A DNA stretch of 64,000 bases, from positions 682,001 through 746,000 of the forward strand of contig NZ_FTMA01000001.1 in assembly GCF_900155985.1 (NCBI RefSeq), written 5' to 3'. The notes below the pieces were generated by a model. That model did no database searches. It was not told the DNA's origin and saw only the letters and a list, made by a program, of their open reading frames with translations. The translations under genes and the position numbers were made by a program. The DNA comes from Maribacter ulvicola. GTDB lineage: Bacteria; Bacteroidota; Bacteroidia; Flavobacteriales; Flavobacteriaceae. Below, piece after piece: positions 34,452-47,139 of this stretch (position 1 is its first letter; every line of letters starts with the position of its first letter).

Positions 34452-35375
34452 CTATAGAAAATTATCAACCTTTTTGTAAGCTTCAATAACGGCTAGCTCA
34501 CCTTCTTTATTTCCTCTAGAATTACCGTGCTCCATACCAAGTACGCCGTTGAACCCTTTTTCATGAATCCATTTAAACACATTATGATAGTTGATTTCGC
34601 CGGTGGTAGGTTCATTTCTACCAGGGTTATCTCCTATTTGTATATAGGCTATTTCTGACCAAGAAGCTTCCATGTTTGGAATTAGGTTTCCTTCTTGAAT
34701 TTGTTGGTGGTAAATGTCAAACAAAATTTTACAAGAAGGAGAGTTTACAGCTCTACAGATTTCAAATGCTTGTGGAGAATCCGTCAAAAATAGCCCGGGA
34801 TGATTTCTAAAATTAAGAGGTTCCAAGACCATAGTAATTTGATGGGGTTCTAAAATAGCAGACGCTTGCCTTAGGCTTTCTACCACATTAGCGGTTTGGT
34901 AGCCCATTCTAAGATTTAGATCTACATGGCCTGGTACAACAGTCATCCATTTAGCATTAACGCGCTTGGCTACTTCAATAGAGTTTTTGATGTCATTTAA
35001 GAATTCTTCTCTTTTAACTTTATCGCCAGAAGCAAGATTAGGAGTTTTCCAGTGTATATCATGCGCTACGAACACTCCCATTTCCAAACCACGTTCTTTC
35101 ATGGTTTTCGCCATCTTTTCTTGAAGTTCTACCGGGCGATTACGCATCCCGTTATCTTCAAATGCGGTATAACCTTGATCAGCCATAAAGTTCAGCTGGT
35201 CAATTGGGTCTTCACCTGCAAGATGTTTAAACATACCTAAATGAGGCGCATATTTTAAATTATACTTGTGAGCTTTTGTAGTGGAATCTAAGGTATTTGC
35301 ATATGATAGGGTGCCACCAAGGGAAATTGCACTTGTAGTTAATGCAGATTTTTGAATAAAGCTTCTTCTTTTCAT
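34452..35375 (-). CDS. TIM-barrel isomerase, hydroxypyruvate-isomerase-like, Tat-type signal
   Basis: A sugar phosphate isomerase/epimerase (AP endonuclease 2 superfamily) of 307 aa. It begins MKRRSFIQKSALTTSA, a twin-arginine-like signal (KRRSFI), so it is probably exported folded. Metal/acid residues sit in VLEPLNFRNHPG (Glu), LFDIYHQQIQEG (Asp and His), IQIGDNPGRNEP and LGMEHG (Glu), the Hyi pattern. In this setting a role on a 3-keto sugar (isomerase, eliminase or hydratase) is more likely than hydroxypyruvate isomerase. It is downstream of the small Gdh subunit (79-base gap) on the same strand. Confidence 0.85.
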   Translation of the reverse strand: MKRRSFIQKSALTTSAISLGGTLSYANTLDSTTKAHKYNLKYAPHLGMFKHLAGEDPIDQLNFMADQGYTAFEDNGMRNRPVELQEKMAKTMKERGLEMGVFVAHDIHWKTPNLASGDKVKREEFLNDIKNSIEVAKRVNAKWMTVVPGHVDLNLRMGYQTANVVESLRQASAILEPHQITMVLEPLNFRNHPGLFLTDSPQAFEICRAVNSPSCKILFDIYHQQIQEGNLIPNMEASWSEIAYIQIGDNPGRNEPTTGEINYHNVFKWIHEKGFNGVLGMEHGNSRGNKEGELAVIEAYKKVDNFL

Positions 35376-35453
35376 GAGTATTTATATAATTGATAATAGC
35401 CAAATGCAAGTATTTCATTGCTTTTGGCTATGGAATATTAAAATATTAGTTGA

Positions 35454-36101
35454 TTATAAAGACCAGGCCTTACCTTCTGTAAGCTCCTGTAGGTCGCCAC
35501 AAGGTATATATTCTCCTGGTACAGGTAAATATGCCAATACCTTTTCGCCTACGTACTCAGAGGCTTTATATCCCCAAATGGTCATTCCTCTTAAGTTATT
35601 GGAAAAAGCAAATCTAGATATCTCATCCTCTAATTCTGCCGTGGTACCTTCGGATATGGCCTTAGTATAGCTGTTGATGGTCTCAAACATTTCTGCTTGT
35701 TGGTCTTTAGTGTATTTTAATGATTTAGCTAAAACAGGTTCTAGGTCTTCAGTAGTTAAATCTTCAGCTTTTTCTTTACCGGTATCTACCAATGCTTTGT
35801 CAATGAATTTTTTCATGGACATCTTTAGGAACTCTTGTTGTTCCTTTTCCATGACATCTTGTGCAAACTTGTCTATGAAAATATCGACTTGTACTTCAGA
35901 GGCAGCAGGGGTATCCGTTTTTGGTAAAATGATGTCTACCAGTGTCGTTAATATGTTACCTTCCGTTTGTGTTAAAAATTCAGGAGTCCAGCTAATGGCA
36001 GGCTCACTTTTACAACTTTGTACGATAGATAATAGGGTTGGGGTAGCCACCATATATCCAAGTGACAGCCCCATATTTTTTAATACGCGTCTTCTATTCA
36101 T
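35454..36101 (-). CDS. Gluconate 2-dehydrogenase subunit 3-family protein
   Basis: The small subunit of a membrane-linked sugar dehydrogenase, 215 aa. It starts with a twin-arginine signal (MNRRRVLKNMGLSLGYM), expected to carry its partner through Tat. A TLVDIILPKTDTPAASEV segment (about 52-69) and IWGYKASEYVGEKVLAYLPVPGEY near the end are typical of PF13618. Its ATG overlaps the stop of the GMC gene by one base (TAATG), so they are translated together. With the GMC protein it should form the catalytic pair. Confidence 0.9.
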   Translation of the reverse strand: MNRRRVLKNMGLSLGYMVATPTLLSIVQSCKSEPAISWTPEFLTQTEGNILTTLVDIILPKTDTPAASEVQVDIFIDKFAQDVMEKEQQEFLKMSMKKFIDKALVDTGKEKAEDLTTEDLEPVLAKSLKYTKDQQAEMFETINSYTKAISEGTTAELEDEISRFAFSNNLRGMTIWGYKASEYVGEKVLAYLPVPGEYIPCGDLQELTEGKAWSL

Positions 36102-37813
36102 TATATGTTTCCTTTTTTAAGTTCCTTAACCGCATGATCTGCAGCTCTAGCCGTAAAGGCCATATATGTTAATGATGGATTTACGCAACTGGCAGAGGTC
36201 ATAAATGACCCATCGGTTACATATACATTAGGTACATCATGTAATTGGTTGTTTCCGTTTAAAACAGATGTTTTTCTGTCTCTGCCCATTCGGGCTGTAC
36301 CCATTTCATGGATTCCTAAACCTAAGGCACTTTCGTTATCATAACCTTTTACATCTCTAAGTCCGGCTTTTTCTAGCATATCAACGGCCGACTCTAAAAT
36401 ATCTTTACGCATTTTAAGTTCGTTTTCTTGAAGTTCGGCATCAAAAGTTACCGTTGGTAGACCCCAATCATCCAGTTTATCGTAGTCTAAAGTGAACCTG
36501 TTGTTTTCATAAGGTAGTACCTCTCCAAAGCCCATCATACCAAATGTCCATCCGCCTGGTTTTAAAACGGCATCTTTTAAGTCTTTACCGTGAGATAGTT
36601 CGGCAATAGATTCTTCCCAGTTACCTCTAGAGGCTCCACCTTGATAGCCAAATCCTCTCTTATAATCTTTTCTATCAGAATCTCCGCCTAGGTTTCTAAA
36701 TCTTGGAATATAAATTCCACTAGGCTTTCTACCTTTATAATACTTATCCTCAAATCCGTCGAACTTGCCAGAAGCACCTACTTGAAGTTGGTGGTCCATA
36801 ATATTACGTCCTAATTGATCAGATTCATTACCCATGCCATTAGGGAAGCTTTCAGATTTAGATTGCATTAATATAGAAGTAGATGCAATTGCAGATGCGC
36901 ACAAGAAAATAACCTTGGCTTTAAATTCAAAAGTTTCTTTGGTATTTGAGTCAATTACCTTAACACCTGTAGCTTTCTTGGTTTTTGGGTCATAAATTAC
37001 CTCATGTACAATTGAATCAGGCCTAAGTGTCATATTACCGGTAGCTTCAGCTGCGGGCAACGTAGAAGATAAACTGCTGAAGTATGCTCCAAAAGGACAG
37101 CCTCTAATACATCTATTTCTAAATTGACATTTACTTCTACCGTCAAATTGCTTGGTTCCTGTAATGTGGGCAGTTCTTCCTGCAGTTACTACACGACCGT
37201 CAAAATTTTCAGCAACTTTATCACGAAATTCTTGTTCTACACAATTTAAATCCATCATTGGTAAAAATTTACCGTCTGGTAATTGTTCTAGACCTAAATT
37301 TTCGCCACTTACGCCAATATACTCCTCAACTTTGTCGTACCAAGGTGCAATATCTTTATAGCGCACAGGCCAATCTATGGCAATACCTTCTTTTTTGTTG
37401 GCTTCAAAATCAATATCACTTAAACGGTAGCTTTGACGTCCCCATTGTAGAGAACGACCTCCTAGATGATAGCCTCTCATCCAATCGAATCGTTTAGTTT
37501 CGTTATATGGGTGTTTTAAATCATTTACAAACCACATGTTACTCGCCTGGTTGGTAGTATATCCCGTTCTGTTTTGTTTTGGTTGTTGCTCTATGATTTT
37601 TTTAGTAGGTTGACCGGCATTAGGAAAATCCCATGGGTCCATATTCGCAGTCTCGTAATCTTCTATATGTTTTACCATACGACCACGTTCTAAGACTAGT
37701 GTTTTAAGGCCTGCTTCGCATAATTCTTTTGCGGCCCAACCGCCACTGATTCCTGTTCCTACAACTATAGCATCATAGGAGTCCTGCTCTTCATTGTAAT
37801 AAAATTTGCTCAT
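36101..37813 (-). CDS. GMC oxidoreductase, glucoside-3-dehydrogenase/FAD-glucose-dehydrogenase type
   Basis: The FAD-binding catalytic subunit of a dye-linked sugar dehydrogenase, 570 aa. The Rossmann motif VVGTGISGGWAAKEL (about 17-31) binds FAD. The conserved GGRSLQWGRQSYR follows at about 118-130. A C-X5-C-X3-C cluster (Cys229, Cys235, Cys239; KCQFRNRCIRGCPFG) matches the 3Fe-4S site of bacterial FAD-glucose dehydrogenase. Catalytic His502 (HEMGTARMG) and Asn545 (CVNPSL) end the protein. It has no signal of its own; the Tat signal is on the small subunit. The gene is first in a three-gene minus-strand operon. A cytochrome partner is not encoded nearby. Confidence 0.93.
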   Translation of the reverse strand: MSKFYYNEEQDSYDAIVVGTGISGGWAAKELCEAGLKTLVLERGRMVKHIEDYETANMDPWDFPNAGQPTKKIIEQQPKQNRTGYTTNQASNMWFVNDLKHPYNETKRFDWMRGYHLGGRSLQWGRQSYRLSDIDFEANKKEGIAIDWPVRYKDIAPWYDKVEEYIGVSGENLGLEQLPDGKFLPMMDLNCVEQEFRDKVAENFDGRVVTAGRTAHITGTKQFDGRSKCQFRNRCIRGCPFGAYFSSLSSTLPAAEATGNMTLRPDSIVHEVIYDPKTKKATGVKVIDSNTKETFEFKAKVIFLCASAIASTSILMQSKSESFPNGMGNESDQLGRNIMDHQLQVGASGKFDGFEDKYYKGRKPSGIYIPRFRNLGGDSDRKDYKRGFGYQGGASRGNWEESIAELSHGKDLKDAVLKPGGWTFGMMGFGEVLPYENNRFTLDYDKLDDWGLPTVTFDAELQENELKMRKDILESAVDMLEKAGLRDVKGYDNESALGLGIHEMGTARMGRDRKTSVLNGNNQLHDVPNVYVTDGSFMTSASCVNPSLTYMAFTARAADHAVKELKKGNI

Positions 37814-37906
37814 AAAAGTTGTTTATTCTCTAAATTTATTAAATATAAAGTTAATTCTATACATTTATTGTTTAATCTTATTGCGAAATCCTCTAAAATT
37901 AGCATC

Positions 37907-37938
37907 TTGCATGATTAATAAACCAAGTAATAATTTTG
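37907..37938 (+). promoter_or_regulatory. Promoter with -33 TTG and -7 TAATTTTG
   Basis: TTG at 37907-37909 and TAATTTTG at 37931-37938 are 21 bases apart, which fits the Bacteroidota primary promoter. It lies 48 bases before the ATG of the lipoprotein isomerase at 37986 and in the divergent gap with the GMC gene. Confidence 0.6.
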
Positions 37939-37985
37939 GCTCAAAAGCTTAAGATTATAATTCAAACAACAACAAATTACCAAAA

Positions 37986-38978
37986 ATGAAAAGAAAAAGT
38001 TTTATCAGAATGGCTTCGGCTGTTGTAATTGGAATCTCGTTATTAACAACTTACGCTTGTAAGGAAACGAAAAAAGAAAAAGTAGAAACTGCTGAGATAG
38101 GCGAAAAGACTGCTAACACGGAACCGTTTTTCGAGTTATCTTTAGCACAGTGGTCTATTCATAAAATGATCAGAGAAGATGGTGTAGATCCATATTCATT
38201 TGCTGAGAAAGCTAAGAACTGGGGGTTTACAGGATTGGAATATGTTAGCCAATTATATAACCCAGAATTGGAAAAAGCCAACTATTCTGATGAGGCGATG
38301 GCCAATTTCGTTGCAAAATCTAACGAAGAGGCAAAAAAACATGGCATGAAGAATGTTTTGATTATGATAGATGGTCAAGGTAATTTGGCCGTTAGTGATG
38401 AAGCAGAGCGAAACAAAACGGTTGAAAAACATAAAAAATGGGTAGATGCCGCAGCAGCTATGGGTTGTCATGCCATAAGAGTAAACCTAAGCGGTAGTAA
38501 CGTTCCTGAGCAATGGATCAAGAACTCGGTAGATGGACTTACAAAATTAGCGACTTATGCAAAAACAAAAAATATTAATATATTAGTAGAAAATCACGGA
38601 GGCCTATCTTCTAACGGTGAACTTCAAGCTCAGGTTTTGAAAAAGGTGAACATGGATAACTGTGGTAGTCTTCCAGATTTTGGAAATTTCTGCATTGAAC
38701 GTAAACCAGATAGTTGGGATTGCGCAAAAGAATATGATAAATATAAAGGTGTAAAAGAACTAATGCCATATGCAAAGGCGGTAAGTGCAAAATCTAATAA
38801 TTTTGATGCAGATGGTTATGACACGGGTATAGATTATGTGCAAATGTTGAAAATTGTAAAAGATGCAGGTTACAAAGGTTTTATTGGTGTAGAATATGAA
38901 GGTTCTGAAATTAGTGAAGAAGAAGGAATCATTGCTACTAGAGATTTATTGATAAAGGCAGCAAATGAAATAGAGTAA
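37986..38978 (+). CDS. TIM-barrel isomerase-like lipoprotein
   Basis: An AP-endonuclease-2 superfamily protein of 330 aa attached to the membrane: signal peptide MKRKSFIRMASAVVIGISLL, lipobox TTYAC (Cys25), then a Lys/Glu-rich linker. The barrel follows with LVENHGGLSSN (Glu), LPDFGNF (Asp), AVSAKSNNFD and GVEYEG (Glu) as expected metal residues. Relatives in 3-keto-glycoside pathways act as eliminases or hydratases; the exact reaction here is not known. It is first of three plus-strand genes (with the DinB-like and permease genes), and divergent from the GMC operon. Confidence 0.87.
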   Translation: MKRKSFIRMASAVVIGISLLTTYACKETKKEKVETAEIGEKTANTEPFFELSLAQWSIHKMIREDGVDPYSFAEKAKNWGFTGLEYVSQLYNPELEKANYSDEAMANFVAKSNEEAKKHGMKNVLIMIDGQGNLAVSDEAERNKTVEKHKKWVDAAAAMGCHAIRVNLSGSNVPEQWIKNSVDGLTKLATYAKTKNINILVENHGGLSSNGELQAQVLKKVNMDNCGSLPDFGNFCIERKPDSWDCAKEYDKYKGVKELMPYAKAVSAKSNNFDADGYDTGIDYVQMLKIVKDAGYKGFIGVEYEGSEISEEEGIIATRDLLIKAANEIE

Positions 38979-38995
38979 TCTTAAGATTATGATTT

Positions 38996-39439
38996 ATGGA
39001 GGCTTTTTTTAACGAAATTTTTGACTATAATTTTCATTGTAATAAAAAGCTGATCGAGCATTATTCGGCGATAAATACGGTGCCAACAGAATCAATGCGT
39101 CTATTTAGTCATATCTTAAATACACATCATATTTGGAATGCAAGAATCTTAAATGAACCTGTCGGTTTTGAGGTTTGGCAAGAGCATGATGTAAAAGATT
39201 GGGCAAATATCCATTACGAAAATCAACGTAGTTCGTTCAACATAGTTACCAATGCTGGTAATTTTGATAAGCATATAGATTATGAGAATTCAGAGGGGCG
39301 ACAGTTCGCTAATAGTTTAAAAGATATTCTTTTTCATATTATCAATCACGCTACAAATTGCAGAGGGCAAATCAATGTAGATGCGAGAAGTAATGATGAA
39401 ACTTCTATATGCTTAGATTATATTTATTATAAAAGATAG
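38996..39439 (+). CDS. DinB-like four-helix metal-binding protein
   Basis: A 147-residue DinB/YfiT-like helical bundle. The three metal His positions are visible in LFSHILNTHHIWNARIL (about 37-53), ILFHIINHATNCRGQIN (about 109-125) and nearby residues. Members are often thiol S-transferases or metal-dependent hydrolases; the function here is unknown. It is 17 bases after the lipoprotein isomerase and its stop codon directly abuts the start of the permease gene, so the three are one transcription unit. Confidence 0.85.
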   Translation: MEAFFNEIFDYNFHCNKKLIEHYSAINTVPTESMRLFSHILNTHHIWNARILNEPVGFEVWQEHDVKDWANIHYENQRSSFNIVTNAGNFDKHIDYENSEGRQFANSLKDILFHIINHATNCRGQINVDARSNDETSICLDYIYYKR

Positions 39440-40669
39440 ATGAAAAATAAAGTTAGAGCACAGCTTTGCTTTATGATGTTTTTAGAATTCTTTATTTGGG
39501 GTGCGTGGTTTGTAACTCTAGGAACGTTTTTAGGAAACAATTTAAAAGCAACAGATGGTGAAATAGCCTTGGCATTTTCAACACAATCATGGGGAGCTAT
39601 TATCGCTCCCTTTGTTATTGGTATAATTGCCGACCGTTATTTTAATGCAGAAAGAATTTTGGGAACCTTACACCTTTTGGGTGCCGTACTTATGTATTTT
39701 ATGTACCAAAGTTCAGCATTCAGTGATTTTTATATTTTGGTTTTAGCGTATATGATTTTATATATGCCAACCTTGGCATTGGTTAATTCGGTATCATTTA
39801 ACCAAATGAGGAATCCTGCAAAAGAGTTTTCTATGGTCCGTGTTTTTGGAACTGTTGGATGGATTGTCGCCGGACTTTCTATAAGCTATATTTTTAGCTG
39901 GGATCAAGGGGAGAATATAGGTAGAGGTCTGCTTAAAAATACATTTTTAATGACGGCTGTAGCATCTTTGATCTTAGGGTTGTTCAGTTTTACATTGCCC
40001 AAAACCTTACCAAAAGCTGCTAGTTCAGAAAAACTTGGTGTAAAAGAAATATTAGGGCTAGATTCTTTGAGTTTATTTAAGGATAAGAACTTTTTGGTCT
40101 TCTTTATTTCTTCGGTTCTAATATGTATACCACTGGCGTTCTATTATCAAAACGCAAATCCTTTTCTAGTAGAAATAGGGATGGATAATCCTACAGGTAA
40201 AATGACCTTGGGTCAAATATCTGAAATTGCATTCATGTTGTTACTTCCTTTGTTCTTTACCAAATTCGGATTTAAGAAAACCATATTGGTAGCTATGGCA
40301 GCCTGGGTGGTACGTTACTTGTTATTTGCATTCGGTGATGTTAACGAACTTGGTTTCATGTTAATAGTTGGTATTGCACTCCATGGTATATGTTATGATT
40401 TTTTCTTTGTATCTGGGCAAATTTATACCGATAATAAAGCAGGTGATAAATTTAAAAGTTCTGCACAAGGACTCATTACATTAGCTACTTATGGCGTGGG
40501 TATGTTAATAGGTTTTTGGGTTGCCGGTAAAATATCTACCACGTACCTATTAGAAGATGGTAAACACCTTTGGAAAACCATTTGGATGTATCCTGCTGGT
40601 TTTGCGCTAGCTGTATTTATTTTGTTCGCAATTTTCTTCAAAACAGAGAAAATTGAATATCAATCTTAG
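39440..40669 (+). CDS. NHS/MFS-family permease (nucleoside:H+ symporter-like)
   Basis: A 409-residue inner-membrane transporter with 12 helices matching Nuc_H_symport. Signature parts are FLEFFIWGAWFVTLGTFL (helix 1), WGAIIAPFVIGIIADRYF (helix 2 and loop) and VRVFGTVGWIVAGL (helix 4-5). The start ATG follows the stop of the DinB gene without a gap. In Bacteroidota, such permeases occur in sugar and 3-keto-sugar clusters, so the substrate here may be a free or oxidised sugar rather than a nucleoside; this is inference. Confidence 0.9.
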   Translation: MKNKVRAQLCFMMFLEFFIWGAWFVTLGTFLGNNLKATDGEIALAFSTQSWGAIIAPFVIGIIADRYFNAERILGTLHLLGAVLMYFMYQSSAFSDFYILVLAYMILYMPTLALVNSVSFNQMRNPAKEFSMVRVFGTVGWIVAGLSISYIFSWDQGENIGRGLLKNTFLMTAVASLILGLFSFTLPKTLPKAASSEKLGVKEILGLDSLSLFKDKNFLVFFISSVLICIPLAFYYQNANPFLVEIGMDNPTGKMTLGQISEIAFMLLLPLFFTKFGFKKTILVAMAAWVVRYLLFAFGDVNELGFMLIVGIALHGICYDFFFVSGQIYTDNKAGDKFKSSAQGLITLATYGVGMLIGFWVAGKISTTYLLEDGKHLWKTIWMYPAGFALAVFILFAIFFKTEKIEYQS

Positions 40670-40820
40670 ATAAATTCTTTAATTTCAATGCCTGAAAATT
40701 GTGATTCATGTTATAATGTATCCATATTTTATTGGAATAACGAGTTATAAATTATCAAACAATAAAACAAATCAGAAGGAATTTTAAACAAATAAATTTT
40801 CAAATTAAATAATTATAAAA

Positions 40821-41960
40821 ATGCCAAAGAAAATACGATTAGGAATATTAGGTGGAGGTGGAGATTCGTTGATAGGTGTATTACATAGAGTAGCAGCTTT
40901 TATCAATGATAATTATGAAATTACAGGGGCTGTTTTTAACCCTGACCATGATGCTAATTTAGCTTTTGCAAAAGAAATAGATATTCCTTTAAACAGAATT
41001 TATAAGGACTTTGATACTTTAGTTGAAGAGGAATTGAAACTTCCGGAAGATGAACGCATACAGGTGTGTTCCATTCTAACGCCAAATTTTTTGCATTACC
41101 CTATGGCCAAGAAATTATTGGATAATGGTTTTAGCGTTATTTGTGAAAAACCAATGACCACTAATTTGGAAGAAGCTAAAGACCTGCAAAAATCTCATGA
41201 AAGAGCAGGTACTGTTTTTGCGCTAACACATACCTATACGGGTTACCCAATGGTACGCCAAATGCGTGAAATGATCAAATCAGGTGCGTTAGGGAAAATT
41301 CATAAAGTAGATGCGGTATATTATCAAGGATGGATCAATACTATTATTCATGATAAAGAGAAAAGATCTTCGGTTTGGAGATTAGACCCTAAAAAAGCCG
41401 GTATTAGTTCTTGTATGGCAGATATAGGGGTGCACGCCTTTAATATGATTGAATATACTACGGGACTTAAAGTGAACGAACTACTTTGCGATTTTAATTA
41501 TCTGTATGAAGATAACCAGATGGATGTAGATGGTACCGTGCTTATACGTTTGGGGGATCATGTAAAAGGGGTGATAAGAGGTAGCCAAGTTGCTACTGGT
41601 GAAGAAAATGGACTGGCTATTTCTATTTATGGAGAGAAGGGGGCTTTTCGTTGGGAACAAGAAAGACCTAACTTTCTGTACAAGTTAAGTGATACCGAAC
41701 CAACACAGATCTACAAGCCTGGTCATGCCTATAATTCTGAATTGTCTTTAGATGGTACTAAATTACCTGCAGGACATCCAGAAGGTATTTTTGATTCTAT
41801 GGCCAATATTTATAAAGGTGTAGCCAAAGCTATTAGAGGCCAGGAGTACAATAGTGGAGAATTTCCAACAATGACCGATGGTGTTCGAGGGATGAACTTT
41901 ATAGAGGCTACCGTAGATTCTCACAAAAATGGAAATACTTGGATAGCATTAGAAAACTAA
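40821..41960 (+). CDS. Gfo/Idh/MocA-family NAD(P)-dependent oxidoreductase
   Basis: A two-domain sugar dehydrogenase of 379 aa. The N-terminal Rossmann fold starts IRLGILGGGGDSLIG and has the catalytic-type Lys in CEKPMTTN (about 111-118). The C-terminal beta-sheet domain carries the substrate residues in DIGVHAFNMIEYTTG (Asp and His, about 203-217). There is no signal peptide, so it acts in the cytoplasm. In a 3-keto pathway such enzymes interconvert C3 alcohol and ketone, for example reducing a 3-keto sugar. A 151-base gap with AT-rich sequence separates it from the permease gene, and a terminator follows. Confidence 0.93.
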   Translation: MPKKIRLGILGGGGDSLIGVLHRVAAFINDNYEITGAVFNPDHDANLAFAKEIDIPLNRIYKDFDTLVEEELKLPEDERIQVCSILTPNFLHYPMAKKLLDNGFSVICEKPMTTNLEEAKDLQKSHERAGTVFALTHTYTGYPMVRQMREMIKSGALGKIHKVDAVYYQGWINTIIHDKEKRSSVWRLDPKKAGISSCMADIGVHAFNMIEYTTGLKVNELLCDFNYLYEDNQMDVDGTVLIRLGDHVKGVIRGSQVATGEENGLAISIYGEKGAFRWEQERPNFLYKLSDTEPTQIYKPGHAYNSELSLDGTKLPAGHPEGIFDSMANIYKGVAKAIRGQEYNSGEFPTMTDGVRGMNFIEATVDSHKNGNTWIALEN

Positions 41961-41980
41961 TAAAGAATAAGAAAGAATAA

Positions 41981-42007
41981 AAAAGAGTCGCAATTTGCGG
42001 CTCTTTT
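41981..42007 (+). terminator. Rho-independent terminator after the Gfo/Idh/MocA gene
   Basis: AAAAGAGTCGC pairs with GCGGCTCTTTT (one G-U) around AATTT. It lies 21 bases after the stop and between convergent genes. Confidence 0.88.
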
Positions 42008-42025
42008 GTTTTAGTGCAATGTTGA

Positions 42026-42487
42026 TCAAGTGTATACTGTTTCAAATTTTTGACATACAACTATCATGCTTTCCTTAGGGTTTCTATTAAATGCTTGTAA
42101 TTCCCTTGTAAAAAAATCCCAATAATAATTTTTCCAACGGTCTAAGGATATAGCATCATATACATCTAATTGAGCATAAGAAGCATCAATGCTAAAATAC
42201 GGTTTAAGTGTTACCCCCGTAGTTGCTATAATACATTGCGCTTCGCCGTTCCAATCAGTAACTACTATGTAATCTCCAATTTTTGGTAAAGGTTCTTTTC
42301 TATTTTGTAGGCCTAATAATGAACGGGAGATTGCTTTCTTTTCTCCGCTTTTTGTGAATTTGGCATTTTGGTCGGCGTCATATTGGTTGTCGCCAAAAAA
42401 CATCGTTTTTGGGGTTTCATGGAAGACATCTTCGAGATGATTTTTTAAATAGGTGCCCCACATGTTTCTAGCCGATGCATTTTCCAT
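42026..42487 (-). CDS. ASCH-domain protein
   Basis: A 153-residue ASCH (DUF984-type) protein, related to the PUA fold and thought to bind RNA or modified nucleosides. The family core is FGDNQYDADQNA (about 31-42), the PKIGDYIVVTDWNGEAQCII motif (about 68-87) and the C-terminal WKNYYWDFFTREL with the conserved aromatic/His-like site. No catalytic role is assigned. It is convergent with the Gfo/Idh/MocA gene and divergent from the isomerase at 42923, so it is probably an unrelated single gene inside the cluster. Confidence 0.85.
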   Translation of the reverse strand: MENASARNMWGTYLKNHLEDVFHETPKTMFFGDNQYDADQNAKFTKSGEKKAISRSLLGLQNRKEPLPKIGDYIVVTDWNGEAQCIIATTGVTLKPYFSIDASYAQLDVYDAISLDRWKNYYWDFFTRELQAFNRNPKESMIVVCQKFETVYT

Positions 42488-42922
42488 AAATAATAATTTA
42501 TTTTAAGTGTTGGAGTGTATAAACGTTTTAGTTTCTATTTAATTTTAAGAGCAGAAAAATTTACCTGCTTATAATTGCTTGTCCGTAAGGTTTATTGTTT
42601 TTTTTGATCAAAGCTATTATGGTTACTATTTAATATGCTTTAGGGTTGTAGTTGTTTTAATAAAAAAGTTTATTAAGTAATTCGTTACTAATTCTTTAGA
42701 GATTATCTTACCGATAATTTTTGTTCCAGTCTCAATAGTGTTAAATACCTCCCCCTTTATTCATGCTTGAATTTTTATCTTTTTTTGATGGTATTTCCTA
42801 TATTTATAGCAAATCTCCCATGTATGGAGAGGAACCCCTTACAATTCTTAAATATAATATATTTTGACACATTTTACGTGTCTATTTTCAACAACTAAAT
42901 CAACAATAGATAGTATATTTTT
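42488..42922. other. 435-base gap before the third isomerase gene
   Basis: No convincing gene is seen. A hairpin with arms TTAATAAA and TTTATTAA lies at 42657-42676. A 34-codon frame from 42763 to 42867 exists but has no signal of being real. The length is suitable for a regulated promoter of the 42923-45568 operon. No -7 consensus box was found close to the start. Confidence 0.4.
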
Positions 42923-43975
42923 ATGAAAACAATCAAAGGACCAGCCGTATTCTTGGCACAGTTTGTAGACAGTAAAGCCCCGTTCAATAGTTTAGATGGT
43001 ATTTGTAAATGGGCAGCTGACCTTGGTTATAAAGGAATTCAGATTCCTACCTGGGAAAGTTTTTTAATAGATTTGGATAAGGCTGCGGAAAGCCAGGATT
43101 ATTGTGATGAGTTAAAGGCCAAGGTGAACTCTTACGGATTGGAAATAACAGAACTTTCTACGCATTTACAAGGGCAATTGGTGGCTGTAAACCCTGCGTA
43201 TGATTTAATGTTTGATTCTTTCGCTCCTAAAAATGTACAAGGAAACCCTAAAGCAAGAACACAATGGGCAATAGAAACTGTTAAAAAAGCGGCAACGGCA
43301 AGTAGAAGACTTGGGTTGAATGTTCATGCTACTTTTTCTGGTTCTTTATTGTGGCATACCATGCATCCTTGGCCTCAAAGACCAGCTGGTCTAGTAGAAA
43401 TGGGCTTTGAGGAGTTGGCAAAAAGATGGACGCCAATCTTAAATCATTTTGATAAAGAAGGAGTAGACGTTTGTTATGAAATTCATCCTGGGGAAGATTT
43501 ACATGATGGCGACACTTTTGAGCGTTTTCTGGAAGCTACGGGAAATCATAAAAGAGTAAATATTCTTTATGATCCAAGTCATTTTGTACTGCAACAGTTA
43601 GATTATATTACATACATTGATCATTACCATGAGTTTATAAAATCTTTTCATGTGAAGGATTCAGAATTTAACCCAACAGGAAAAAAAGGTGCTTTTGGTG
43701 GTTATAATGATTGGGGCGATAGAGCAGGTAGATATCGTTCATTAGGTGACGGACAGATAGATTTTAAAACCATATTCTCTAAATTAACACAATATGGTTG
43801 TGATGTTTGGGCGGTTATGGAATGGGAATGTTGTATTAAGAGTCCAGAGCAAGGTGCACGAGAAGGAGCTAAATTCATTGCGGATCATATTATAGAAGCA
43901 ACCGAAAAAACTTTTGATGATTTCGCAGGTGGAGATATAGATAAGGAAATGTTGAAAAAAATGTTAGGAATTTAA
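42923..43975 (+). CDS. TIM-barrel sugar isomerase/epimerase, cytoplasmic
   Basis: An AP-endonuclease-2 superfamily protein of 350 aa without a signal peptide. Predicted metal residues are Glu in VCYEIHPGEDLHDG, Asp and His in ILYDPSHFVLQQ, His in SFHVKDSEF and Glu in AVMEWECC. The segments WAADLGYKGIQIPTW and YRSLGDGQIDFKTIF are typical of the family found beside Gfo/Idh/MocA enzymes in Bacteroidota. A role as 3-keto-sugar hydratase, lyase or isomerase is inferred from context. It is first of a three-gene operon with two DUF1080 lipoproteins (12-base gaps). Confidence 0.9.
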   Translation: MKTIKGPAVFLAQFVDSKAPFNSLDGICKWAADLGYKGIQIPTWESFLIDLDKAAESQDYCDELKAKVNSYGLEITELSTHLQGQLVAVNPAYDLMFDSFAPKNVQGNPKARTQWAIETVKKAATASRRLGLNVHATFSGSLLWHTMHPWPQRPAGLVEMGFEELAKRWTPILNHFDKEGVDVCYEIHPGEDLHDGDTFERFLEATGNHKRVNILYDPSHFVLQQLDYITYIDHYHEFIKSFHVKDSEFNPTGKKGAFGGYNDWGDRAGRYRSLGDGQIDFKTIFSKLTQYGCDVWAVMEWECCIKSPEQGAREGAKFIADHIIEATEKTFDDFAGGDIDKEMLKKMLGI

Positions 43976-43987
43976 AATAGAAGATAA

Positions 43988-44728
43988 ATGAAGAAGGTAT
44001 TGGTAAGTGTAGCTTGTTTGTTGGCATTCATTGCTTGTAAACAAGAAAAAAAAGAAACCTCTGAAGCTGTTATAGATGAAAAGGTTACTGCTGTAGAAAA
44101 TGAATGGGAGGTTTTGTTCAACGGCACTTCGCTGGAGAAATGGAAAGGCTTTAAAACAAACGAGGTTAGCGATGCTTGGAAAATTGAGGGTGAGGCATTA
44201 GTATTTACGCCACCTGCGAAAGGGAAAAAAAACAAAAACCATGACCTGGTTACCAGACAAGAGTATACCAATTTTGTATTGCAATTAGATTGGAAAATAT
44301 CAGAGGCCGGTAATAGTGGTGTTTTTTGGGGGGTTAGTGAAAATGAAAATTTTGGTGCGGGATACCAAACAGGTCCTGAAATCCAAATATTGGATAATGA
44401 CAAGCATCCTGATGCAAAAGCTGGTACAACACATCAAGCAGGTGCGCTGTATGATATGGTTTCTCCCGCAAAAGATGTTACTAAACCAGTTGGTGAGTGG
44501 AATACAATGGTCATCACCGTAAACCATAAAGAACACAAAGGCAATGTAGTGTTGAACGGTACAGAAATAGTAACGTTTCCTGTAGCAAATGAAGAATGGA
44601 ATGCTATGGTTGCAAATTCTAAGTTTGCAGGTTGGGACGGATTTGGAAAATACACCACCGGTAAAATAGGATTGCAAGATCACCATGATATAGTGTCTTT
44701 TAGAAATATAAAAATCAAGCAACTTTAA
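43988..44728 (+). CDS. DUF1080 (3-keto-disaccharide hydrolase) lipoprotein, first copy
   Basis: A 246-residue lipoprotein: signal MKKVLVSVACLLAFIAC (Cys17 in the lipobox FIAC), then a Lys/Glu-rich linker. The DUF1080 domain (concanavalin-like fold, PF06439) starts at EWEVLFNGTSLEKWKGF (about 39) and shows the core NSGVFWGVSE, TGPEIQILDND, QAGALYDM and WDGFGKYTTGKIGLQDH, ending VSFRNIKIKQL. The family cleaves 3-keto-glycosides after C3 oxidation, which fits the neighbouring dehydrogenases. It should act on the periplasmic or outer surface. A second copy follows after 12 bases. Confidence 0.93.
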   Translation: MKKVLVSVACLLAFIACKQEKKETSEAVIDEKVTAVENEWEVLFNGTSLEKWKGFKTNEVSDAWKIEGEALVFTPPAKGKKNKNHDLVTRQEYTNFVLQLDWKISEAGNSGVFWGVSENENFGAGYQTGPEIQILDNDKHPDAKAGTTHQAGALYDMVSPAKDVTKPVGEWNTMVITVNHKEHKGNVVLNGTEIVTFPVANEEWNAMVANSKFAGWDGFGKYTTGKIGLQDHHDIVSFRNIKIKQL

Positions 44729-44740
44729 ACGTATTTACAT

Positions 44741-45568
44741 ATGAAATTTAAATACTCGTTAATAGTAGTATTGGCTATTTTAGGTGTTGTTTCTTGTCAA
44801 GAAAAAGTACCGCAAAATACGGTTGATAGTGTAGATACTAAAGAAAAGGATAATGTCATTGTACATGAAGAGTATATGGGTGAAGAGCCTACAACTCCTG
44901 AAGGTACTGAGTTTTATGAGCCTAAAGTACCAGTGGTGAAGCCAGCTGGTTTAGGTGCTACACCTAGTGATGCTATTGTGCTTTTTAATGGTACAAACTT
45001 TGATAATTGGATAAGTATTAAAGATAGTTCTGCCGTTAAATGGCATTTGAACAAAGATGGTAGCATGACGGTAAATGACAAAACCGGCAACATACAGACT
45101 AAGCAGCATTTTGGCGATGTACAATTGCATATAGAATGGAAATCTCCTTTACCTGTGCAAAGAGACAATCAAAATAGAGCGAATAGTGGTGTTTTTTTAA
45201 ATGGTATCTATGAAGTTCAAATATTGGATCAAAATGATAACCCTACGTACGTAAATGGACAAGTGGCTTCTATCTACAAGCAGCATGTTCCTTTGGCTAT
45301 GGCCTCTGTGCCAACTGGTGATTGGAATACATATGATATTATTTATCACGCACCAGAATTTAATGAGGATGGGGGTAAAATAAAATCGGGTGATATCACG
45401 GTTATTCACAACGGAATCTTAGTTCAGGATCATGTGGAGCTTAAAGGTACTACGCCTTACGTTGGCTGGCCTAAGAACCCAGCTCATGGTAAAGGCCCAT
45501 TAATGTTGCAAGATCACGGCGATGATAGTCGTGTGAGCTTTAGAAATATTTGGGTCAGAGAGCTATAA
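44741..45568 (+). CDS. DUF1080 (3-keto-disaccharide hydrolase) lipoprotein, second copy
   Basis: A 275-residue lipoprotein with signal MKFKYSLIVVLAILGVVSC (Cys19 lipobox), a longer acidic linker (about 20-75) and a DUF1080 domain from IVLFNGTNFDNWISI. Core motifs are NSGVFLNGIYEVQILDQND, KQHVPLAMASVPTGDWNTYDI and GPLMLQDHGDDSRVSFRNI. It shares fold and ends with the first copy but differs in the substrate-loop sequences, so the pair may act on different linkages or partners. It ends the operon, followed by a terminator. Confidence 0.92.
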   Translation: MKFKYSLIVVLAILGVVSCQEKVPQNTVDSVDTKEKDNVIVHEEYMGEEPTTPEGTEFYEPKVPVVKPAGLGATPSDAIVLFNGTNFDNWISIKDSSAVKWHLNKDGSMTVNDKTGNIQTKQHFGDVQLHIEWKSPLPVQRDNQNRANSGVFLNGIYEVQILDQNDNPTYVNGQVASIYKQHVPLAMASVPTGDWNTYDIIYHAPEFNEDGGKIKSGDITVIHNGILVQDHVELKGTTPYVGWPKNPAHGKGPLMLQDHGDDSRVSFRNIWVREL

Positions 45569-45699: not shown

Positions 45700-46557
45700 A
45701 TGATTCAATCAATGACCGGCTTTGGAAAGCATGTAGTTCAATTGCCTAATAAAAAAATTACGGTAGAAATAAAATCTCTTAATAGTAAAAGTATTGATTT
45801 AAACGCTCGTATGCCTTCAAGCTACCGTGAAAAAGAATTGGAACTAAGAAAATTGGTCGCTAATTCATTATTGCGAGGAAAAGTAGATTTTAACTTATAT
45901 GTGGAACTTACTGGAGATACAACCTCTACCCAGGTTAATGAAGAAGCGGTTAAGCAGTACATGAATCAATTGAAAAATATTGCTGATGGGGATGACCTTA
46001 GATTGTTAGAGATGGCATTACGTTTTCCTGATGCTATGAAGACCGATAAGGAAGATATAGATGAATCTGAATACGAAGCTATCAAAGAAGCATTAAAAGG
46101 CGCCCTGGTAGAAATCAATGAGTTTAGATCTGAAGAAGGTAGTGTGTTAGAAAAAGATTTTCTAGCTAGAATATCTTCTTTAAAGAAATTATTAGAAGAG
46201 GTTGTACGTATTGATCCAGATAGACAAGCTACCATTCGTGAGCGTTTAGAAAAAGCGGTACAAGATATTAAGGCAGATTTAGATGCAAACAGATTTGAAC
46301 AAGAGCTTATCTATTATTTAGAGAAATATGATATTACCGAAGAAAAGGTACGTTTGGCAAATCATTTAGATTACTTCAGTAAAACATTACAATCAGATGA
46401 CAGTAACGGTAAAAAACTAGGATTCATTGCTCAAGAAATAGGTCGTGAAATAAATACGATCGGTTCTAAGGCAAACTTTGCCCCTATGCAGCAAATAGTA
46501 GTTCAAATGAAAGATGAACTAGAAAAAATTAAAGAACAAATGCTAAATGTACTATAG
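45700..46557 (+). CDS. yicC: YicC-family endoribonuclease
   Basis: A 285-residue YicC/YloC protein, a conserved bacterial endoribonuclease family. The N-terminal signature MIQSMTGFGKHVV, then VEIKSLNSKSIDLNARMP, and the C-terminal DUF1732 block (KKLGFIAQEIGREINTIGSKANFAPMQ) are complete. Genes of this family are widely linked with gmk, as here. The stop codon directly abuts the gmk start. Confidence 0.95.
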   Translation: MIQSMTGFGKHVVQLPNKKITVEIKSLNSKSIDLNARMPSSYREKELELRKLVANSLLRGKVDFNLYVELTGDTTSTQVNEEAVKQYMNQLKNIADGDDLRLLEMALRFPDAMKTDKEDIDESEYEAIKEALKGALVEINEFRSEEGSVLEKDFLARISSLKKLLEEVVRIDPDRQATIRERLEKAVQDIKADLDANRFEQELIYYLEKYDITEEKVRLANHLDYFSKTLQSDDSNGKKLGFIAQEIGREINTIGSKANFAPMQQIVVQMKDELEKIKEQMLNVL

Positions 46558-47139
46558 ATGAAAGGTGGAAAATTAATTATTTTTTCTGCGCCTTCAGGAA
46601 GTGGAAAAACAACCATTGTACGCCATTTATTGAAAAAGCCAGAATTAAATTTGGCTTTTTCTGTATCTGCAACTTCGCGCCCAAGAAGAGGTAAGGAAAA
46701 AAATAAGGAGCATTATTATTTTATGTCTGTTTCCGAGTTTAAAAATCATATCAAGAACGATGATTTTTTAGAGTGGGAAGAAGTTTATAGGGATAACTTT
46801 TATGGTACGTTGAAAAGCGAAGTAGAACGGCTATGGGCAGAAGGCAAGAACGTTATTTTTGATATTGACGTTGTTGGTGGACTAAGAATAAAAAAGAAGT
46901 TTCCGGATCAAACATTGGCTGTTTTTGTTAAGCCGCCAAGTGTAGATGAACTTAAAATCAGGCTTAAGAAACGTAGTACGGAAAGCGAAGACAAAATAAA
47001 TATGCGTATTGCAAAGGCATCGGTAGAATTGGCAACGGCACCACAGTTTGATAAAGTGATTAAGAATTATGATCTTGATGTGGCCTTGAAGGAATCAGTA
47101 GATTTAGTAGCATCTTTCATTTCTAACGATAAAGAATAA
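46558..47139 (+). CDS. gmk: Guanylate kinase
   Basis: Phosphorylates GMP to GDP, 193 aa. The P-loop is FSAPSGSGKTTIVRHLL (about 8-23). The GMP-binding segment is ATSRPRRGKEKNKEHYYFMS, with YRDNFYGT later, and the lid/Arg region is LKKRSTESEDKINMRI. It lies between yicC (no gap) and nadD (6-base gap) in one operon. Confidence 0.97.
   Translation: MKGGKLIIFSAPSGSGKTTIVRHLLKKPELNLAFSVSATSRPRRGKEKNKEHYYFMSVSEFKNHIKNDDFLEWEEVYRDNFYGTLKSEVERLWAEGKNVIFDIDVVGGLRIKKKFPDQTLAVFVKPPSVDELKIRLKKRSTESEDKINMRIAKASVELATAPQFDKVIKNYDLDVALKESVDLVASFISNDKE

Follow-up and report, generated by a model that had tools for sequence, protein, structure and literature searches.

A block of genes at positions 34452-45568 of the window, as we call the whole 64-kb stretch of Maribacter ulvicola DNA analyzed here, is likely to encode a catabolic set for glycosides that would act by oxidation and elimination. 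The window is a piece of a 2.0-Mb contig, and the genome (4.5 Mb) is 99.96% complete. A sequence-only reading of this DNA named nine genes in the block and assigned them to families; all nine are intact open reading frames (ORFs) within these limits, and Pfam bears the families out: AP_endonuc_2 (three proteins), PF13618, GMC, an MFS permease (PF03825), Gfo/Idh/MocA, and PF06439 (two proteins). PF06439 is the former DUF1080, now termed 3-keto-disaccharide hydrolase in Pfam. The block was also said to lack SusC/SusD and classical glycosidases. Indeed, SusC/SusD was matched neither by the 11 block proteins nor by the 50 of 59 window ORFs (at least 120 aa) scanned with Pfam, and no glycoside hydrolase family besides PF06439 was matched by the same 50; the other nine ORFs comprise seven small ones judged spurious and those at 45700-46557 and 46558-47139. 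Our findings support the proposed class of pathway: breakdown of glycosides through C3 oxidation, with some steps in the periplasm, others in the cytoplasm, and uptake and reduction included. The order of reactions, however, is not undescribed, as had been claimed: excerpts of PMC9007349 describe such clusters, and those of PMC10628242 give an order in four steps.

A probable cytoplasmic hydratase and reductase

TIM_C (42923-43975, plus strand), a cytoplasmic protein previously called isomerase-like, does belong to a TIM-barrel family, but its match to PDB entry 8ro4, named 2-hydroxy-3-keto-glucal hydratase, makes it most likely a hydratase of this kind rather than an isomerase or eliminase. 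The match (E 2.5e-162) places residues 1-350 of TIM_C on residues 1-349 of 8ro4; 226 of the 350 alignment columns are identical (65%). Five residues, E186, H188, D217, H243, and E300, are unchanged in 67 rows of close relatives and are the same in 8ro4; thus, TIM_C groups with 8ro4-type hydratases both by full-length homology and by metal and catalytic residues. The 8ro4 protein itself is presumably AtHYD of Agrobacterium or a close relative. Because hydration is needed only if cleavage is an elimination, the hydratase assignment makes elimination likelier than hydrolysis.

The same genes could nevertheless work hydrolytically, with periplasmic DUF1080 proteins converting 3-keto-glycosides to a 3-keto-hexose and a sugar, and TIM_C acting on the keto sugar as an isomerase or dehydratase. 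This would agree with the Pfam name of PF06439, with the hydrolysis of 3'-ketolactose and 3-ketotrehalose proposed for DUF1080 proteins in PMC9007349, and with a weak match of TIM_C to the NCBIfam model for myo-inosose-2 dehydratase (61.4 bits; cut-off 290). We consider it unlikely, as the whole-length match to 8ro4 favors elimination plus hydration, and the hydratase stands beside eliminase genes of the C-glycoside deglycosidase (CGD) type in Croceicoccus (see below). Hydrolysis and elimination plus hydration yield identical net products.

The Gfo/Idh/MocA oxidoreductase (40821-41960, plus strand), whose best solved relative is 3v5n, would be the cytoplasmic 3-keto sugar reductase, as judged from Pfam and synteny. 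Its N-terminus lacks a signal and its score with the BT_2158 model is 30.4 bits (cut-off 750), and so the protein does not qualify as an exported Gfo-class oxidant of the BT2156-BT2160 type.

A putative GMC oxidant with an exported partner

The candidate for the oxidation step is a GMC flavoprotein of 570 aa (36101-37813, minus strand; PF05199 and PF00732 above cut-off), which resembles the large subunit of LacA/GlycDH-like glycoside 3-dehydrogenases. Over nearly its whole length it is similar to the large subunits of fructose dehydrogenase (FDH) and glucose dehydrogenase (GDH) (E about 1e-38). Its residues C229, C235, C239, H502, and N545 are unchanged in 81 of 81 aligned rows and provide the iron-sulfur cysteines and the catalytic His and Asn that characterize the FDH/GDH-like GMC branch: the three cysteines line up with cysteines of FDH and GDH, and H502 lines up with the His mutated in the H1147A entry of FDH. 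We take the cysteines of this branch to hold a 3Fe-4S cluster. The GMC protein has no export signal. However, the PF13618 small subunit encoded alongside (35454-36101, minus strand; Pfam), as expected for LacABC-type enzymes, has a twin-arginine translocation (Tat) start and a likely lipoprotein cysteine, with R3, R4, and C30 unchanged in 79 rows, and it would carry the large subunit out of the cytoplasm. The genome has 12 matches to PF13442, every one outside the window, and a separate cytochrome c is cited as the electron acceptor of Rhizobium radiobacter glucoside 3-dehydrogenase (PMC9915066).

Compartments and transport

The N-termini agree with the localization given by the sequence-only reading, including two exported TIM-barrel proteins and one cytoplasmic one. 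Twin-arginine starts are present in the PF13618 subunit and in TIM_A (34452-35375, minus strand), and lipobox-type starts in TIM_B (37986-38978, plus strand) and in both PF06439 proteins, whereas the GMC, Gfo, and TIM_C proteins have no N-terminal signal. Across relatives, signals were scored with a crude N-terminal pattern, which found TIM_A to be Tat-like in 55 of 57 rows, TIM_B lipobox-like in 64 of 75, the two DUF1080 lipoproteins lipobox-like in 52 of 62 and 45 of 52, and TIM_C Tat-like or lipobox-like in 0 of 67. The Gfo protein was Tat-like in 0 of 71 rows and lipobox-like in 12, which we take as pattern noise; the window Gfo has no lipobox at its N-terminus. Only 13 of the 79 PF13618 rows were scored as Tat by this pattern, even though the two arginines and the cysteine are invariant. 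Together, the N-terminal patterns suggest that oxidation and cleavage are periplasmic and that hydration and reduction are cytoplasmic, and the PF03825 permease looks to be the link between them.

The permease (39440-40669, plus strand), which from Pfam and synteny would import the keto-sugar product, belongs to a family named for nucleoside H+ symport (PF03825, 374.3 bits; TIGR00889, 363.6 bits). This might suggest a nucleoside route in which the GMC enzyme oxidizes the 3'-hydroxyl of ribose, but we regard such a route as highly improbable: the TIGR00889 score lies below its cut-off (446.1), PF12832 and LacY-type sugar symporter models match the permease as well, the substrate of the hydratase relative is a hexose-derived glucal, and no nucleoside genes were found in the block.

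Candidate cleavage enzymes

Two DUF1080 lipoproteins and TIM_B are candidates for the cleavage step. The first lipoprotein (43988-44728, plus strand), a putative 3-keto-glycoside-cleaving enzyme according to Pfam and synteny, matches PF06439 with 160.9 bits (cut-off 26.8), and its C17 is unchanged in 62 rows. The second (44741-45568, plus strand; 134.8 bits) belongs to a distinct subfamily, with 4qhz as the nearest solved structure. TIM_B, a TIM-barrel lipoprotein, has an eliminase-like E-x-H motif; E202-N-H204, D231, and E303 are unchanged in 75 rows. Its closest solved chain is 4ovx, followed mostly by C-glycoside deglycosidases and Art22 at 16-20% identity. On the basis of its conserved residues and synteny, we consider TIM_B a candidate lipid-anchored periplasmic eliminase (or hydratase). 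TIM_A is of the hydroxypyruvate-isomerase/ketose-epimerase type by family match and by its structural model (predicted local distance difference test score, 82.8), in which the nearest folds are isomerases and epimerases and the strand-5 glutamate lies in an EPLN motif. Perhaps it epimerizes a keto sugar.

Proposed pathway

Gene identities, N-terminal signals, active-site residues, and co-conservation are seen in the sequence; from these we infer the reactions, their order, and the transported species. First, the GMC flavoprotein, having reached the periplasm together with its Tat-signal PF13618 partner, would oxidize the sugar at C3, and an iron-sulfur site would relay the electrons to a cytochrome whose gene lies outside the block. 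The aglycone would then be lost by beta-elimination, catalyzed by either or both of the DUF1080 lipoproteins and perhaps also by TIM_B, to give 2-hydroxy-3-keto-glucal, or a 3-keto sugar should the lipoproteins hydrolyze. The product would be taken up by the MFS permease, TIM_C would hydrate the glucal to 3-keto-glucose, and the cytoplasmic Gfo/Idh/MocA enzyme would reduce the latter to the hexose. Such a route probably has a broad substrate range.

A more specific version, which we offer tentatively and with more doubt than conviction, is that the pathway is split at its reactive intermediate: the DUF1080 lipoproteins and TIM_B, the latter a lipid-anchored eliminase working without the customary beta subunit, would release the glucal outside the cytoplasm, the MFS permease would import the glucal itself, and the hydratase-reductase pair would rescue it to hexose. 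If this were true, the hydratase-Gfo core would stay the same while the cleavage enzyme could be swapped, with DUF1080 in this role here and CGD plus GH3 in Croceicoccus.

Conservation among relatives

As a comparison of cluster content in relatives, we examined GMC loci from the best 80 of 328 relatives, 68 of them with full flanks; because all come from close kin of the host, their counts are not independent. The closest GMC relatives among these 80 are from Maribacter, with up to 97% identity. Five core genes (GMC, PF13618, TIM_B, Gfo, and TIM_C) are present together in 63 of the 68 full-flank loci. Individually, PF13618 was found in 66 loci, TIM_B and Gfo in 65 each, and TIM_C in 64; at least one DUF1080 gene was found in 63 loci, and two or more in 51.

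More broadly, a hydratase match at E <= 1e-60 was found in 57 of 296 Bacteroidota genomes (59 matches), and a Gfo relative lies within the 4-kb locus of the TIM_C homolog in 25 of 29 loci fetched. From the 59 matches we picked by hand 20 regions of 20 kb in other genomes, three of which (G107, G118, and G142) belong to the window's own family, and placed 19 control regions by hand, 18 on contigs that also supplied test regions and the last in a different genome (G138). The 20 regions contain Gfo in 17 cases, MFS in 12, DUF1080 in 10, GMC and PF13618 in seven each, TIM_A in six, and TIM_B in three, whereas the controls contain one DUF1080 and no other block family. In the 17 regions outside the window's own family, the counts are 14 for Gfo, nine for MFS, seven for DUF1080, four for TIM_A, and one for TIM_B. 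The synteny counts and the control regions indicate that the grouping exceeds chance, and the region counts point to the hydratase and Gfo as the constant core, with the oxidant and the cleavage enzyme varying.

This core is also found on plasmids from other phyla. A search of plasmid records gave 310 with a hydratase relative (E <= 1e-60), and three of these were inspected. Pseudoalteromonas donghaensis has a single run of Gfo, hydratase (67.7%), MFS, DUF1080 (37.4%), GMC (31.6%), PF13618, and TIM genes; the models of the block did not match its MFS and TIM proteins, so the two sets agree in the kinds of genes rather than one to one. Croceicoccus marinus has a TIM gene with PF19906 (the C-glycoside deglycosidase beta subunit), glycoside hydrolase family 3 (GH3), Gfo, hydratase (67.7%), PF13618, and GMC (48.5%), which means that a classical glycosidase can occur in such clusters. 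Rhizobium beringeri has an ATP-binding cassette importer, TIM, hydratase (66.3%), and Gfo, with no GMC within the 17 kb seen.

Several observations weigh against our interpretation. None of the 11 block proteins matched a cytochrome, such as the cytochrome c LacB; lacking this subunit, the pair is classed as LacA/LacC-like, not LacABC. In phmmer searches with the three TIM proteins (E <= 0.01), the eliminase AtOGE (8bvk) was not among the matches. MFS is in 53 of the 68 full-flank loci and gone from 15, TIM_A is in 50 and gone from 18, and GMC and PF13618 lie near the hydratase in just four of the 17 regions outside the window's own family, so the oxidizing partner varies. Excerpts of PMC9007349 term DUF1080 proteins 3-keto-glycoside hydrolases and report a lactose phenotype for no DUF1080 gene of Pedobacter, and mutants of B. 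theta BT2157 and BT2158 are reported to grow normally on raffinose-family sugars (PMC11501099).

Other DUF1080 members are reported as endo-xanthanase/lichenase (PMC9007349), which would also suit a reading in which the two DUF1080 lipoproteins of the block bind or cut glycans in the ordinary way and the GMC, TIM, and Gfo proteins serve polyol, inositol, or free sugar metabolism. TIM_C belongs to the IolE superfamily, and most of the 14 DUF1080 domain matches in the genome lie outside the block. Even so, this reading is improbable given that DUF1080 genes occur alongside the hydratase-Gfo core in 10 of the 20 regions, against one control of 19, that in the window it starts 12 bp after TIM_C, and that TIM_C scores far under the IolE cut-off. 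On balance, we favor oxidation and elimination.

Gene arrangement and related loci

On the minus strand, the PF13618 and GMC genes share one base, and TIM_A follows 78 bp after PF13618; on the plus strand, TIM_B, a DinB-family gene, and MFS are separated by 17 and 0 bp, with 151 bp to Gfo, and the two gaps between TIM_C and the DUF1080 genes are 12 bp each. This spacing suggests three sets: GMC-PF13618-TIM_A, TIM_B-DinB-MFS, and TIM_C-DUF1080-DUF1080. Two block genes were absent from the sequence-only reading, the DinB-family gene (38996-39439, plus strand; Pfam), which would share the TIM_B-MFS transcription unit, and an antisense ASCH-domain gene (42026-42487, minus strand; Pfam). DinB (59 of 68) and ASCH (66 of 68) are syntenic in Flavobacteriaceae-type loci, yet both are found in 0 of the 20 other Bacteroidota regions; they are probably passengers.

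At the TIM_A position, identity to the window across loci L009-L088 is either about 75-92% or about 60-66% and does not track GMC identity, as if two versions had been swapped there. In three Zobellia loci (L020, L022, and L095), the hydratase lies about 3 kb past the edge of the GMC locus and adjoins a second GMC relative (68%). Elsewhere in the M. ulvicola genome, one DUF1080 match (C5:1557903-1558364) is broken by two stop codons. At L172:7134-9375 and L174:4483-7229, DUF1080 genes adjoin genes for Gfo proteins that look exported and are similar to the BT_2158 glycoside 3-dehydrogenase, with model scores of 290.6 and 149.9 bits (cut-off 750); these two sets are other 3-keto systems of the same genome. 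L171:10504-16612 has another GMC/PF13618 pair with a TIM-barrel gene next in line, and a LacI regulator and a BT_2158-like Gfo lie nearby.

Comparison with known systems

Oxidizing a sugar first, so that its bond can be eliminated, is an established alternative to ordinary glycosidases, and the block is a well-conserved instance of this known kind, not a new system. In the Agrobacterium operon the order is oxidation, elimination, hydration, and reduction: GMC-type GlycDH, which was paired with a TAT-signal protein, oxidizes C3, AtOGE removes the aglycone to give 2-hydroxy-3-keto-glucal, preliminary evidence assigns the hydration step to AtHYD, and the 3-keto-glucose is reduced by a Gfo enzyme (PMC10628242). 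The block resembles this A. tumefaciens O-glucoside pathway in its GMC oxidant with a TAT-signal partner, its probable hydratase, its Gfo/Idh/MocA reductase, and the proposed four-step order. On the other hand, no AtOGE homolog was detected among the three TIM proteins of the block, which instead has DUF1080 lipoproteins and two exported TIM proteins, and cleavage looks periplasmic. With the C-glycoside deglycosidases (DgpB/C, DfgA/B, and CGD), TIM_B has in common the fold and the E-x-H motif at 16-20% identity only; the PF19906 beta subunit was not matched by any of the 11 block proteins, although the identical search does detect it in Croceicoccus.

In B. thetaiotaomicron BT2156-BT2160, C3 oxidation is followed by DUF1080 cleavage, as we propose for the block, but the oxidant BT2158 is a periplasmic Gfo-class glycoside 3-dehydrogenase (PMC11300592, PMC9007349), whereas that of the block is a GMC flavoprotein and its Gfo is signal-less. 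Excerpts of PMC9007349 describe LacABC plus DUF1080 clusters for lactose and other glycosides in Caulobacter, where they include a transporter, two epimerases, and a reductase, and related ones in the Bacteroidota Indibacter, Algoriphagus, and Pedobacter. Compared by gene kind, the block matches them in its LacA-like GMC, LacC-like PF13618, DUF1080, transporter, two epimerase-type proteins, and reductase, but not in the cytochrome gene lacB. What appears new here is that the hydratase of a flavobacterial version has a likely identity, that the pathway is probably split between compartments, and that an exported TIM protein with an eliminase-like motif is a candidate for cleavage. Many marine flavobacteria would carry an oxidative route overlooked by searches for classical glycosidases or SusC/SusD pairs. 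For LacABC-type clusters, the excerpts of PMC9007349 leave open what becomes of the keto sugar once DUF1080 has acted; the conserved hydratase-reductase pair beside genes of the same kinds offers a concrete, testable answer.

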